From Patescibacteria group bacterium (GTDB lineage: Bacteria > Patescibacteriota > Patescibacteriia > 2-12-FULL-60-25), in NCBI GenBank assembly GCA_028715505.1, contig JAQURS010000001.1, forward strand, positions 124,001 through 188,000: DNA of 64,000 nt. Direction: 5' to 3'. Positions 22,472 to 48,208 of this stretch are shown in pieces (positions within the stretch are counted from its first letter, which is position 1; each line of letters starts with the position of its first letter). Both the position numbers and the translations under genes were made by a program. Below the pieces are notes generated by a model, which saw nothing but the letters and a program-made list of their open reading frames with translations, was not told the DNA's origin and searched no databases.

Positions 22472-24817
22472 ATGGCTAGAGAAAGAGGCTTCACGACCCA
22501 TGAGCAACGAAAGGCATTCTTGCGTCAGCCTTTGGACCAAAAATTGACCGACGCCAGGTATAAATTCGAAAGAACAGTTGGCTCGGCTTCCAAAGAAGAA
22601 GTTGAAACCGCGGAGTTGGAATTCAAAACCGCCAAACTGGACGTTGAGTCGTATGACTTTGAGAGGGACTCAACTGGGGCTTGGAAAGGGGAGAGTCTGG
22701 GCGTGGATTTGAATGGTATCCATGAAGATCTTCAAAAAGAAGATGGGAGTTTGGACATGGAAAAAGCCAAAAATACGCACGTAGTCCAAATCAACATGGG
22801 CGAGTTGGATAGGTTGAACAAAGTGTATGGCCATGAAGTCGGAAATCAAGCCTTGAGCGATACCTGTCAGTTGATCTACCGGCGTTTAGAAGAGGTTTTA
22901 AGTGAAGCTTTGCAAAAAGGAACGGGTCAGGAGTCGACCTGGGAAGATTTGGAATCGCATTTCGACGTCTATCGCAGCTCGGGCAATGATTTCACGGTCA
23001 TCTTGCGGGGAGTAGAGGAGGGCGTAGCCGCTAAATTTCAAGAAACTTTGAATGGCAACTTGCGGATCGAAGCGTCCGGACGCGAGGAAGAGGCTCCGAT
23101 CGTGGCCACGCGGGTGCCTCTCGCGGACGCGGTCGATTATTTTAACGAAAATCAAGCGAGTATCAGTAACTCCAATCCGGGCAGGGCTTTCGTGGACGTG
23201 GTCAAAGAGCAAGGTCAGATTTTAAACGACATCGAAAAAAATAACCGGCGTATCGATCGCATCCTGAAGATCGGGGACGAAGAAAAAGCCAAGGCGCTTT
23301 ACGAGAATTATTTGAAAAAAACTTTAGGCCGGTTATTCGTGGCCGATCCGGCTGGCGAAGCCATGGGGTTCGAGGCTTTTAAGGAGGCGCTTAACAGTTC
23401 GCAAGATGAGGGTTTGGAAAAATCCATCACCTTGGCCATCGGCGATTTTCGGGCGCGGCAAAAAGAAGCCCATCATCTTTCCAAAACCCTTTCCAAATTC
23501 GTTTTCGACAAAAAGAGAGAGGATTTATTGAAGTCAAAAGGCCTGGATCTCAACGAAGAAGAGGTTCTAAGTGAAAGAAGCGCGGTTAAAATGGAAGGTC
23601 AGTTGGAAGAGGTAAAAGATGAGGCGGAATTTTTCGGGCAAATGCCCCCGACTACCGGTGAGAAGGAAATCGAAGGGTTAAAAAACGAAGTTAAACGGCT
23701 GGAGGCTTTGCTTCAGGGCGATCCCGAAAACAAAACGACTAAAGCCAAGCTCGAGTTGGCCAAATCTGAACTCCATAACTCGGAAGTGAAGCGCAATCCG
23801 GCTACCGGCCTTTACGAACGTGGCATGTTTTTCCGCGAGGTTAAATCCAGGTTGGAAGAAGGCAAGCCGATAACGGCCGTGGCCATCGACATGGCCTTCT
23901 TGAAGTATTTTGACAAAGAAGGTGGACGCAAGACCGGCAACTCGGCCATCAAGATGGCGGCCAGAATTTTGGACCAAGCTGTCCGCCAAGCCGATCCCTC
24001 GGTCAAAGCCGAAGCGTACCGCACTGGCGGCGACGAGTTCGCGCTGACTTTGGAGACGGATGATCAGGAAATCGTAAGGAAAGTCCAACACGCGATCCGC
24101 GAAATGGCGAGACAACTGCCCGTGCCGGCTTTGGACGAGGGCAGAACCCAGCAATTCAGGGCCGAGAGGCTAAATTTCAATTTTGGCCTTTATTCGGCGG
24201 CCGACATGGCTTCTTTTAGGCAAGAATTGACGGACGCGCAATTCCACTTGAAAGCTGGCGAAAACGAACGGCCGGCCATGGTCGAAGAGTCGGCGGATTA
24301 CCTCTTTAGGATCGCCGATCGCCAAGTGGAAATAGAAAAAACCATCCAGCGTTTCATGCTCCTGACGCAACGTTATTATTTTGAGAATTTCGGGGGAGAA
24401 GAGCCGAAGGGTAATTACCAAACATTGGAAAATTATTCGGCGAAAGCCATCGGCGACGAAGGCCCGGCTTTGATCCGCGCGTGGGCTGAAGAAAAGGCCG
24501 CTCAGAAAAAAGGACCCAAGGATTTGGATTGGGCGCCTTTGCAACGCAAGGTTTTAGAATACGTCATTCAAAAAGGCATTGAAGAAACTGAAAGGCATGC
24601 CAAAGAAGGGGAGTTCACGGACCGGCTTTTGGAATCGGCCGTGCGCGAAAGGTTTTTGAAACAGCGCCTGGACGAGTTGCAAGACGATATAAAAACGTTA
24701 AAGGCAGATTTGAATAAATCAGACAAAGACAAGGCCGAGTTGGCGAGGAAGATTAACGAATTGGAAGCTGAAGTCAAAACCGTTGGGCAGTTGCGCCAGC
24801 AGATCAACCAAGGTTGA
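22472..24817 (+). CDS. Double GGDEF-domain protein
   Basis: 781 residues, soluble. A first GGDEF-like domain (about 100-260) keeps the fold signature (INMGELDRLNKVYGHEVGNQAL) but has SGNDF at 170-174 instead of GGDEF, so it is likely inactive. A long helical linker follows. The second domain has NPATGLYERGMFF, then VAIDMAFLKYFDKEGG and an intact GGDEF at 519-523 (YRTGGDEFALTL). The C terminus is helical with a coiled coil (LQDDIKTLKADLNKS). Active GGDEF domains make cyclic di-GMP. No EAL, HD-GYP or PilZ domain is visible in the window, so output is unclear. Its end overlaps the convergent elp3 by 14 bases. Confidence 0.85.
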   Translation: MARERGFTTHEQRKAFLRQPLDQKLTDARYKFERTVGSASKEEVETAELEFKTAKLDVESYDFERDSTGAWKGESLGVDLNGIHEDLQKEDGSLDMEKAKNTHVVQINMGELDRLNKVYGHEVGNQALSDTCQLIYRRLEEVLSEALQKGTGQESTWEDLESHFDVYRSSGNDFTVILRGVEEGVAAKFQETLNGNLRIEASGREEEAPIVATRVPLADAVDYFNENQASISNSNPGRAFVDVVKEQGQILNDIEKNNRRIDRILKIGDEEKAKALYENYLKKTLGRLFVADPAGEAMGFEAFKEALNSSQDEGLEKSITLAIGDFRARQKEAHHLSKTLSKFVFDKKREDLLKSKGLDLNEEEVLSERSAVKMEGQLEEVKDEAEFFGQMPPTTGEKEIEGLKNEVKRLEALLQGDPENKTTKAKLELAKSELHNSEVKRNPATGLYERGMFFREVKSRLEEGKPITAVAIDMAFLKYFDKEGGRKTGNSAIKMAARILDQAVRQADPSVKAEAYRTGGDEFALTLETDDQEIVRKVQHAIREMARQLPVPALDEGRTQQFRAERLNFNFGLYSAADMASFRQELTDAQFHLKAGENERPAMVEESADYLFRIADRQVEIEKTIQRFMLLTQRYYFENFGGEEPKGNYQTLENYSAKAIGDEGPALIRAWAEEKAAQKKGPKDLDWAPLQRKVLEYVIQKGIEETERHAKEGEFTDRLLESAVRERFLKQRLDELQDDIKTLKADLNKSDKDKAELARKINELEAEVKTVGQLRQQINQG

Positions 24818-26429
24818 GGCTTTTAACCATGTAAGAATCCTTTTCTTCGTAACCGAGTTGTCGGTAATATTCGCGTACTCCGATCCCGCTGATAACGGCC
24901 ATGTGGTCAAAACCGGCTCCGGCTGCCAGCTCTTCGGATTTTTTCATCAGCATGCGGCCATAACCCTTATGCTGGGCCGCCATCGGGTCCTGCTGGTCGA
25001 TGTTTAGAGCCGTGCCATAAGTGTGCAGCTCGCGAATAATGGCCGCGCCGCGCAGGACCGGAAAGGCTTCGTAGATCTCCGAATCCGGAATGGACTCAGG
25101 CGGTTGTCTCATCCTCAAAAACGCGAAAACCGCCGATCGATCCTCATTCTCGACTGATAAAAATACTTCGGTACCTCCGGCATTCTCATATCTTTCCTCA
25201 AAAACTGTAGTTTTATCCTTTGTATGGTCGCCCGACACGTGGCCGACTTCACGGCAACGCAGGCAAACGCACCGCAAACCGCGTTTTATCATTTCATCAT
25301 CCAAAATTTCCCGCAGGTTTGATTTTTTATTGCCATACGCGATTTGGGTTGTCGGGAAGTCCCGTATGACGCGGGGCACGCGGCAATATCTCGGGACCAT
25401 TGATTGCATTTTTACCAAAAGTTCAAGCAGCTCTTGCCCTTCAATCGGTTTGAATTCCCCGCGGGCCGTCCATTCCGCCAACTCGGAATCGGGCAAGACG
25501 ACGCAAGGATAAATTTTGACCATGTCCGGCCGAAAGCGAGGGTCCGCGAATAAAATCCTGAAAGATTCCAAATCGTCTTCGGTGGTCGCGCCCGGCATTC
25601 CAGGCAACATGTGGACGTCGACTTTGAAACCAGCCGTTTTGAGCAGGTGAATGGCATTCTCCGCGTCAGAGACCGTAGTGCCGCGTTTGACCAGGTCCAA
25701 AACCCGGTCATTGATAATCTGTAATCCAAGTTCCACGCGCGTAACGCCCAGTTTGCGAAGGTGGATGACTTCTTTTGGCTTAACCCAATCTGGCCGCGTC
25801 TCAATCGTCAGCCCGATTATTCGATAGTCCGCCGTCTCATTTATCTTTTGCGCTTTCTCCAACCCTCCTCCTGCATCTACCTCGGGATGAAGAAGCTCGT
25901 TTGCCGCTTCAAAACACCTTGTAATGAACCATTCGCGGTAATCCGCCGTGTAAGCCGACCAGGTACCGCCTTTAACGATCAATTCAATCTTATTGGCCTT
26001 ATGCCCGTTTTTTTCAAGCGTGAGAATTCTTTGTTTTACCTGCTGATACGGGTCGAACTCCAAACTCAAGGCCCGCGCGGCCGCTGGTTCGGTTGAAATG
26101 TAACTCTTTGGCATCCGCGTTTCGGATGGGCAGTAAACGCAACGCCCTGGGCAGGGGAAAGGTTTAGTCAAAACGGTGATCGGCGCCACGCCGCTGTCCG
26201 TCCGGACGTCTTTGACGCGCAGGATCCGTTCTATCACTTCATTGTTTTCGAATCCCTCTTCCAAAAGCGCGCGGTAAGCCTCCCAAAATTTTAAAGATGT
26301 AGGGAAAGCGTATGGGGTGTGTTTAAGATGACGTCTGGCCAGGCGCGCCAAATCAGCTCGCGTTCGGCACTTCGAATCCGCGGCTTCCTTAAGAATTGTC
26401 TTGGTTAAATCGGCGGGAGGGCTTTGCAT
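24804..26429 (-). CDS. elp3: Elp3-family radical SAM / GNAT tRNA U34 modification enzyme
   Basis: 541 residues from the ATG at 26429 (MQSPPADLTK). The radical SAM domain carries the iron-sulfur cluster Cys set C93, C97 and C100 in PCPGRCVYCPSE; the C-terminal GNAT domain ends HKGYGRMLMKKSEELAA, then GIGVREYYRQLGYE. Elp3 uses acetyl-CoA and a SAM radical to make 5-carboxymethyluridine at the wobble position of tRNAs; archaeal and bacterial members work without the other Elongator subunits. The further upstream start (26495) would run into the divergent methyltransferase gene. It lies head to head with a Trm9-like methyltransferase that could act on its product. Confidence 0.92.
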   Translation of the reverse strand: MQSPPADLTKTILKEAADSKCRTRADLARLARRHLKHTPYAFPTSLKFWEAYRALLEEGFENNEVIERILRVKDVRTDSGVAPITVLTKPFPCPGRCVYCPSETRMPKSYISTEPAAARALSLEFDPYQQVKQRILTLEKNGHKANKIELIVKGGTWSAYTADYREWFITRCFEAANELLHPEVDAGGGLEKAQKINETADYRIIGLTIETRPDWVKPKEVIHLRKLGVTRVELGLQIINDRVLDLVKRGTTVSDAENAIHLLKTAGFKVDVHMLPGMPGATTEDDLESFRILFADPRFRPDMVKIYPCVVLPDSELAEWTARGEFKPIEGQELLELLVKMQSMVPRYCRVPRVIRDFPTTQIAYGNKKSNLREILDDEMIKRGLRCVCLRCREVGHVSGDHTKDKTTVFEERYENAGGTEVFLSVENEDRSAVFAFLRMRQPPESIPDSEIYEAFPVLRGAAIIRELHTYGTALNIDQQDPMAAQHKGYGRMLMKKSEELAAGAGFDHMAVISGIGVREYYRQLGYEEKDSYMVKSLNLG

Positions 26430-26472
26430 TTCGTTTCTTGTATCTTGGAATTTTAGAATGTAAGCTAGTTTG

Positions 26473-27183
26473 ATGGAAAACTTGATAAGAAGCAAGCTGT
26501 CTAAGGAAGTGGCTGATTTTTACGAAAAAGAAGGAAAGATGTTCAGCTCCAAGCGCACCTGGGGTTGGCAGGTGATGGACCTCCTCAAGGCACGATTGAA
26601 GCCGGGGGATTTATTAGTGGACGTGGGGGCTGGCAACGGTCGTCTGGCAGATATTTTACCCGAAGGCGTTAATTATATCGGCGTCGAGCCTTCCTCGACT
26701 TTACGTGATGAAGCTCAAAAAAATCACAAGGTGGAAATGCGATCAGGAACATTACCGAAACTCGATTTGCCGGACAATCATGCCGAAGCGGTTGCCTGCA
26801 TTGCCGTTTTGCACCACATTCCGTCGAATGTTTGGCGCGTGGATTCGATCAAGGAACTTCATAGGATCTTAAAGCCGGGCGGCACTTTACTCTGTACCGT
26901 TTGGAATCTACGGGCTTCGAGATTTCGGTCTTGGCAAAGTTTTAAAAGCGCCTGGATGCGTTTGAAAGGCATAAGAGGAGGCGAAGCGGGTGATATGTAT
27001 TACGCGTGGAAAGCCAGCGGAGAACTCGAAAAGAGGTATGTCCACGCTTTTACATTGGGCGAGTTTAAATCGCTTTTTGATCCAGCGCTTTGGTCGATCG
27101 AAAAAATCGGGGCTTATGACCGCCAGGGCTGGTGCAATTGGATTAAAGGCAGAAACTTGGCCGCGTTAGTTACCAAGAAATAA
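26473..27183 (+). CDS. Trm9/ALKBH8-like tRNA methyltransferase
   Basis: 236 residues. SAM-binding motif I is DVGAGNGR at 50-57, and VACIAVLHHIPSNVWRVDSI at about 107-126 is the post-motif-II region that in Trm9 reads IAVVHHWST..RR. A motif LHRILKPGGTLLCTVW and a C-terminal RYVHAF (188-193), with the final NLAALVTKK, also follow Trm9 (RYYHLY, WWVVVQRK). Trm9 methylates 5-carboxymethyluridine made by Elongator/Elp3 to the methyl ester mcm5U. The family call is by eye; the gene could be a generic Methyltransf_11 protein, but its place beside elp3, 43 bases apart and divergent, supports the pairing. No Trm112 partner is seen. Confidence 0.75.
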   Translation: MENLIRSKLSKEVADFYEKEGKMFSSKRTWGWQVMDLLKARLKPGDLLVDVGAGNGRLADILPEGVNYIGVEPSSTLRDEAQKNHKVEMRSGTLPKLDLPDNHAEAVACIAVLHHIPSNVWRVDSIKELHRILKPGGTLLCTVWNLRASRFRSWQSFKSAWMRLKGIRGGEAGDMYYAWKASGELEKRYVHAFTLGEFKSLFDPALWSIEKIGAYDRQGWCNWIKGRNLAALVTKK

Positions 27184-48133: not shown

Positions 48134-48208
48134 GGCCCCATCGTCTATCGGTTAGGACAGCGGCTTTTCAAGCCGTTAAGAGGGGTTCGATTCCCCTTGG
48201 GGCTACCA
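48134..48208 (+). tRNA. tRNA-Glu (TTC)
   Basis: Cloverleaf with acceptor GGCCCCA/TGGGGCT, anticodon loop TTTTCAA (anticodon TTC), T arm AGGGG-TTCGATT-CCCCT, and encoded CCA. It reads Glu GAA and GAG. Its wobble U34 is a classical substrate for the carboxymethyl-type modification that the Elp3 at 24.8 kb would provide. Confidence 0.95.

Follow-up and report, generated by a model that had tools for sequence, protein, structure and literature searches.

A divergent elp3–methyltransferase gene pair in Patescibacteria and its predicted role in wobble uridine modification

We describe a gene pair of a Patescibacteria genome, elp3 and the gene of a Trm9-like methyltransferase, which start back to back on opposite strands and probably take the place of the usual bacterial wobble machinery, which nearly all relatives of this genome lack. 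The pair lies in a stretch of 64,000 nucleotides (contig JAQURS010000001.1, positions 124,001 to 188,000; hereafter the window). In the reading that we prefer, to which we give a probability of about 0.78, Elp3 would form cm5U34, the Trm9-like enzyme would turn it into mcm5U34 and MnmA would add the s2 group in Lys, Gln and Glu tRNAs, and this set of enzymes would replace MnmE–MnmG.

Textbook bacteria carry (c)mnm5(s2)U34, made via MnmEG, and mcm5(s2)U34 is regarded as eukaryotic and, by prediction, archaeal. If the reading is true, mcm5s2U34, a nucleoside held to be typical of eukaryotes, would also be made in bacteria, and a widespread, MnmG-excluding pair of Elp3 and Trm9-like enzyme would explain what replaces MnmEG in many reduced genomes. 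Moreover, a pathway that takes no fewer than 15 proteins in yeast could be studied enzymologically in a two-protein system, and the pair would supply a natural Trm9-like enzyme seemingly working without its activator Trm112, which eukaryotic Trm9 requires.

Arrangement and recurrence of the gene pair

On the minus strand, the open reading frame of elp3 begins with an ATG at 26429 and ends at 24804; that of the methyltransferase, on the plus strand, begins with an ATG at 26473 and ends at 27183. Exactly 43 bases separate the two divergent start codons, in agreement with the spacing given by the initial annotation. The list of open reading frames also held a longer elp3 start, a TTG at 26495, which was rejected as it would overlap the methyltransferase gene. 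All features are collected in Table 1.

Table 1. Features of the window discussed in the text, with positions counted from its first base
Feature	Position	Strand	Basis or remark
elp3: radical SAM and GNAT enzyme, predicted tRNA U34 5-carboxymethylation	24804..26429	minus	541 aa; TIGR01211, MinElp3 match
4Fe-4S cysteine motif CPGRCVYC (Cys93, 97, 100), CX3CX2C	26130..26153	minus	Elp3 alignment
Divergent intergenic region, 43 bases; single weak promoter-like site at 26479-26450 (minus)	26430..26472		sequence
Trm9-like class I SAM methyltransferase, predicted cm5U34 carboxyl methyltransferase	26473..27183	plus	236 aa; PDB profile, AF2, Foldseek
Arg28 of the methyltransferase, corresponding to yeast Trm9 R29	26554..26556	plus	invariant, 44/44
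IAVLHH; His114 corresponding to yeast Trm9 H115	26800..26817	plus	H 36/44; second His 43/44
RYVHAF; Arg188 corresponding to yeast R241, Val190 at the position of yeast Y243	27034..27051	plus	R 41/44
Asn228, head of the last beta-strand (228-235), matched by position to yeast N271	27154..27156	plus	N 41/44
tRNA-Glu(UUC), possible substrate	48134..48208	plus	ARAGORN

At the family level the product of the minus-strand gene is a clear Elp3. It matches TIGR01211 (ELP3) with 547.5 bits at a cut-off of 350, over model positions 4-522 of 522, and the Pfam models Radical_SAM and Radical_SAM_C both score over their cut-offs; the crystallised Elp3 of Methanocaldococcus aligns with it in phmmer over the full radical SAM–linker–GNAT length (E 1e-125). 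Cys93, Cys97 and Cys100 are invariant across 89 aligned Elp3s, with the spacing CX3CX2C kept in 87 of them, and the earlier identification of the gene from its radical SAM cysteines and GNAT domain is thereby borne out.

The Elp3s of relatives vary in length. In a relative of the same genus (L186, G008:C5:34300-36800) a complete DUF559 is inserted in frame between linker and GNAT (Pfam E 5e-32), the Elp3 of L188 (G264:C41:600-2900) has a long insert directly after the zinc-binding cysteines, and in further relatives the Elp3 frames are unusually long, with 600-740 aa. These cases suggest that in-frame insertions in Elp3 are recurrent among the relatives.

Recurrence of the elp3 pairing had been set beforehand as a test of the initial proposal, and the pairing did recur, both in other phyla and in dozens of genomes related to this one. 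The survey of the phylum was an even draw of 240 genomes, in which the methyltransferase family was counted at 100 bits or more. The methyltransferase was present in 67 genomes, Elp3 in 89 and both in 66, a co-occurrence with a Fisher p of 6e-38, uncorrected for kinship. Only 1 of the 67 genomes has the methyltransferase without Elp3, against 23 of the 89 with Elp3 without the methyltransferase; therefore, the pattern is that expected of an enzyme acting downstream of Elp3. Among the 68 copies of the methyltransferase family, 55 are no more than 360 bases away from elp3. They come from 31 families (by the coding of the tool), and all 55 are divergent, none of the adjacent copies being convergent or tandem. 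The divergent gaps are short in relatives too (median 111 bp between matched regions), and the methyltransferase accompanies Elp3 also where the two genes are not adjacent.

Public contigs were moreover scanned with an alignment of 10 closer relatives, which gave a set of named loci, mostly in metagenome bins. The same divergent pair was found in contigs labelled as Chloroflexota (Anaerolineales, Caldilineaceae and Aquidulcis), as Fermentibacteria, as Deltaproteobacteria/Myxococcota, as one Proteobacteria bin and as Dojkabacteria, and also in contigs labelled as Nanoarchaeota and Aenigmatarchaeota, both DPANN archaea. One locus (L077, QZJX01000010.1, labelled 'Ignavibacteriales') was not counted as a find outside the phylum, since its pair is of the Patescibacteria type and falls with Patescibacteria in the tree, and MnmG is present in its bin but in none of the other 17; the contig is probably misbinned in the public genome.

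Relationship of the methyltransferase to Trm9

The plus-strand product matches Pfam Methyltransf_11 with 57 bits, and profiles made from its relatives place it next to Trm9. An alignment of 44 family members from related genomes was compared with 177,635 distinct PDB sequences, and Trm9 of Yarrowia lipolytica came first (5cm2_Z, E 2.4e-29), with the runner-up at 1.6e-24; a second, smaller alignment from which the window protein was left out again had Trm9 as the top PDB match (4.8e-27 vs 1.7e-20 for the next). The match runs through the blocks typical of Trm9, D-V-x-x-P-W, RY-x-H and IAV-x-HH. The protein stays below the cut-off of every curated NCBIfam family, the highest score being 43.9 bits where 155 are required, and UbiE, BioC, ArsM, DVU_1556 and CmoB, considered as its family, were rejected on the same ground. 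Thus, the Trm9-like assignment proposed at the start survived the profile search, with Trm9 as the best PDB match and no other methyltransferase family claiming the protein.

The AlphaFold (AF2) model of the protein has a mean pLDDT of 95.8, and Foldseek ranked 5cm2_Z first with it. VIA-align placed Trm9 fifth, with a Z of 20.4 that is nearly tied with those of several class I methyltransferases, so structure alone is not decisive for the assignment, and it is therefore the profiles, the tree and the residues, rather than Z, that carry the family claim. In a tree of 83 sequences, made by a quick method and with one eukaryotic sequence, Trm9 groups with the bacterial elp3-linked enzymes, and a starred branch (99) separates these from generic methyltransferases; two elp3-linked sequences from DPANN archaea fall on the generic side of this branch. 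When Yarrowia Trm9 was used as query against the 96 close relatives, a member of the family was the best match in about 48 (hand count) of the 53 genomes in which the family occurs. In the window's own genome, the family member was found at E 1.1e-5, practically tied with another methyltransferase at 1.2e-5.

In yeast Trm9, R29, H115, R241, Y243 and N271 are important for tRNA affinity and activity (PMC5372719). Four of these five residues are kept in the window protein, R28, H114 and R188 by alignment and N228 by position; the initial annotation had pointed out the motifs IAVLHH and RYVHAF, in which two of these residues lie, and both were located (Table 1). The printed Trm9 alignment ends before N271, and the correspondence with N228, judged from its place in the strand and from its conservation, is a probable one. 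At the position of Y243 the protein has Val190. Val is found here in 24 of the 44 family members and Tyr in 14, so this site does not split the elp3-linked family from Trm9, because members of one family carry either residue. We file the protein as a member of a Trm9-like, elp3-linked family and not as Trm9 proper, because it lacks Y243 and no Trm112 partner was found in the genome, both being features of characterised Trm9.

Predicted pathway and rival explanations

MnmG, the component of the MnmE–MnmG route that was searched, was found in none of the 96 close relatives, and the same search was positive in 9 of 14 control genomes. The phylum draw gave MnmG in 6 of 240 genomes, none of which has Elp3 or the methyltransferase, and no MnmG was found in 17 of the 18 genomes behind the named loci, several of them larger than 5 million bases. 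The U34 thiolase MnmA is present in 91 of the 96 relatives, the window's genome among them.

According to the proposed mechanism, Elp3 alone would convert U34 into cm5U34 by radical SAM chemistry with acetyl-CoA, without the other Elongator subunits. The Trm9-like enzyme would transfer the methyl group of SAM to the carboxylate of cm5U34 to give mcm5U34, in this lineage without a Trm112 partner, and MnmA, encoded elsewhere in the genome, would place a 2-thio group onto Lys, Gln and Glu tRNAs, leading to mcm5s2U34. These three enzymes would stand in for the missing MnmE–MnmG route. Substrate, product, order of the steps and independence from a Trm112 partner are what we infer here. From the two-gene wobble-uridine pathway first suggested, the pairing and the likeness to Trm9 are upheld, and the number of enzymes is probably three, as MnmA is present to add the 2-thio group.

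The U34 tRNAs that ARAGORN found in the genome include Lys(UUU), Gln(UUG), Glu(UUC), Arg(UCU) and Gly(UCC), the five that bear mcm5(s2)U in yeast (PMC5372719). The tRNA-Glu(UUC) of the window, which the initial annotation had named as a classical substrate, is indeed present, but provides no evidence for the pathway, because most bacteria have it. The same genome also encodes a tRNA-Ile(UAU) outside the window (G000:C1:220630-220701, L146), and among the 44 tRNAs found only two have the anticodon CAT, each of them called as Met. This genome may thus lack the lysidine route by which bacteria usually read AUA; if so, restricting U34 modification on tRNA-Ile(UAU) would matter.

Trm112 (PF03966) was not detected in the window's genome, in support of the earlier suggestion that here the pathway runs without it, and it scored over its cut-off in only 2 of the 96 relatives. 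It did so in 12 of the 18 named-locus genomes, mostly outside Patescibacteria; hence, the claim of independence from Trm112 is limited to this lineage. Another genome (G026:C4:186969-187589) has a Trm112-like stretch adjoining a match of the Trm9 query on the same strand, with the frame open for 359 aa, which suggests a bacterial fusion of Trm112 and a methyltransferase. This genome carries the normal elp3 pair as well.

Some observations speak against the preferred reading. Y243 is replaced by Val, the reciprocal Trm9 search in the own genome is weak, and the Z values are nearly tied among class I methyltransferases. Eukaryotic Trm9 needs Trm112, yet none was found in this genome. Moreover, a strong Elp3 match is absent in 41 of the 96 close relatives, which also lack MnmG (e.g. 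G009-G012, G014, G041 and G044), so life with neither is feasible, and many of these relatives may have no C5 wobble modification whatever, or one of some other kind.

Genetic linkage by itself shows only that the methyltransferase works with Elp3, and it is conceivable, though unlikely, that the enzyme acts on the Elp3 product while the end nucleoside is not mcm5U, either since the ester is converted further, to the amide ncm5U or to some other derivative, or since another group of the Elp3-modified uridine is the one methylated. The pocket may indeed differ in the members with Val for yeast Y243 (24 of 44), and an archaeon is documented to contain ncm5U (PMC5372719); on the other hand, the enzyme retains four of the five functional residues of Trm9, and no solved relative is closer to it than Trm9. 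Less likely still is a target elsewhere, at another tRNA position, in a protein or in a small molecule, with the gene merely co-regulated with elp3 through a shared divergent promoter region. Class I enzymes of the Methyltransf_11 type are hard to assign, and no curated bacterial family claims the protein. However, mere co-regulation would not be likely to give the one-way dependence on Elp3 that the 1 of 67 and 23 of 89 genomes display, the pair is kept also when non-adjacent, and the closeness to Trm9 is specific in both profile and tree. Finally, a generic methyltransferase might lie beside elp3 by chance, as several weakly similar methyltransferases occur in the genome (4 matches), but recurrence refutes this: 31 families contribute 55 adjacent copies, every one divergent, and several phyla add further cases.

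The preferred reading, that Elp3, the Trm9-like enzyme and MnmA act in turn on U34, can be stated more widely: in a large part of Patescibacteria and in some Chloroflexota and other bacteria, MnmEG would be replaced by Elp3 and a Trm9-like enzyme, which together with MnmA would make mcm5s2U34, Trm112-free in this lineage. We hold this wider statement with less confidence, at somewhat better than even odds.

Comparison with known systems

MnmE–MnmG, which makes cmnm5U34, serves the same nucleotide and the same decoding task with unrelated enzymes, and MnmG is absent here and in close relatives. CmoM forms the methyl ester of cmo5U34 in proteobacteria, on a 5-oxyacetic acid uridine made through CmoB. 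The predicted reaction would be of the same type, a methyl ester on a side-chain carboxylate of U34; no CmoM model was among the NCBIfam matches of the methyltransferase at E <= 0.1.

The eukaryotic Trm9–Trm112 and the methyltransferase domain of ALKBH8 are alike in being the best match by profile and by Foldseek, in sharing TR, IAVxHH, DVxxPW, RYxH and the terminal Asn, and in the predicted carboxyl methylation of cm5U34. They differ in that the enzyme described here is bacterial, has Val for Y243, is paired with elp3 and comes from a genome in which no Trm112 was found. A 2017 review of Trm112 states that bacterial genes significantly similar to eukaryotic Trm112-dependent methyltransferases were not detected (PMC5372719).

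Stand-alone bacterial Elp3 is known from Dehalococcoides mccartyi (PMC6367351, PMC7663514), and the parts of these two sources cited here mention no partner methyltransferase for it. The latter, a 2020 review, names the Dehalococcoides clade as bacterial holder of Elp3, describes direct evidence for xcm5U34 derivatives there as lacking, and gives mcm5U34 as documented in Haloferax (PMC7663514). More recently, a 2026 paper reports Elp3 in numerous bacteria and the formation of cm5U34 from acetyl-CoA by archaeal Elp3 in vitro through radical SAM chemistry (PMC13315578). No description of a bacterial Elp3–Trm9 pair was found in the open-licence literature, most subscription papers lying outside the search.

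The archaeal systems are similar in combining Elp3 without other Elongator subunits with a Trm9 homologue (PMC2584109, PMC5372719). For Haloferax, the Trm9 and Elp3 homologues led Grosjean and co-workers to predict mcm5s2U, and for Sulfolobus they noted a clustering of the two genes (PMC2584109); the set of Haloferax consists of HVO_2888 with HVO_0574 or HVO_1032 (PMC5372719). The archaeal systems differ in thiolating by Tuc1/Ncs6 and not by MnmA, in having Trm112 in many archaea, and in being described from few archaeal orders. Thus, of the novelty claimed at the start, the use of Elp3 and Trm9 without other Elongator subunits had already been proposed for archaea (PMC2584109), and it is the bacterial setting that is new.
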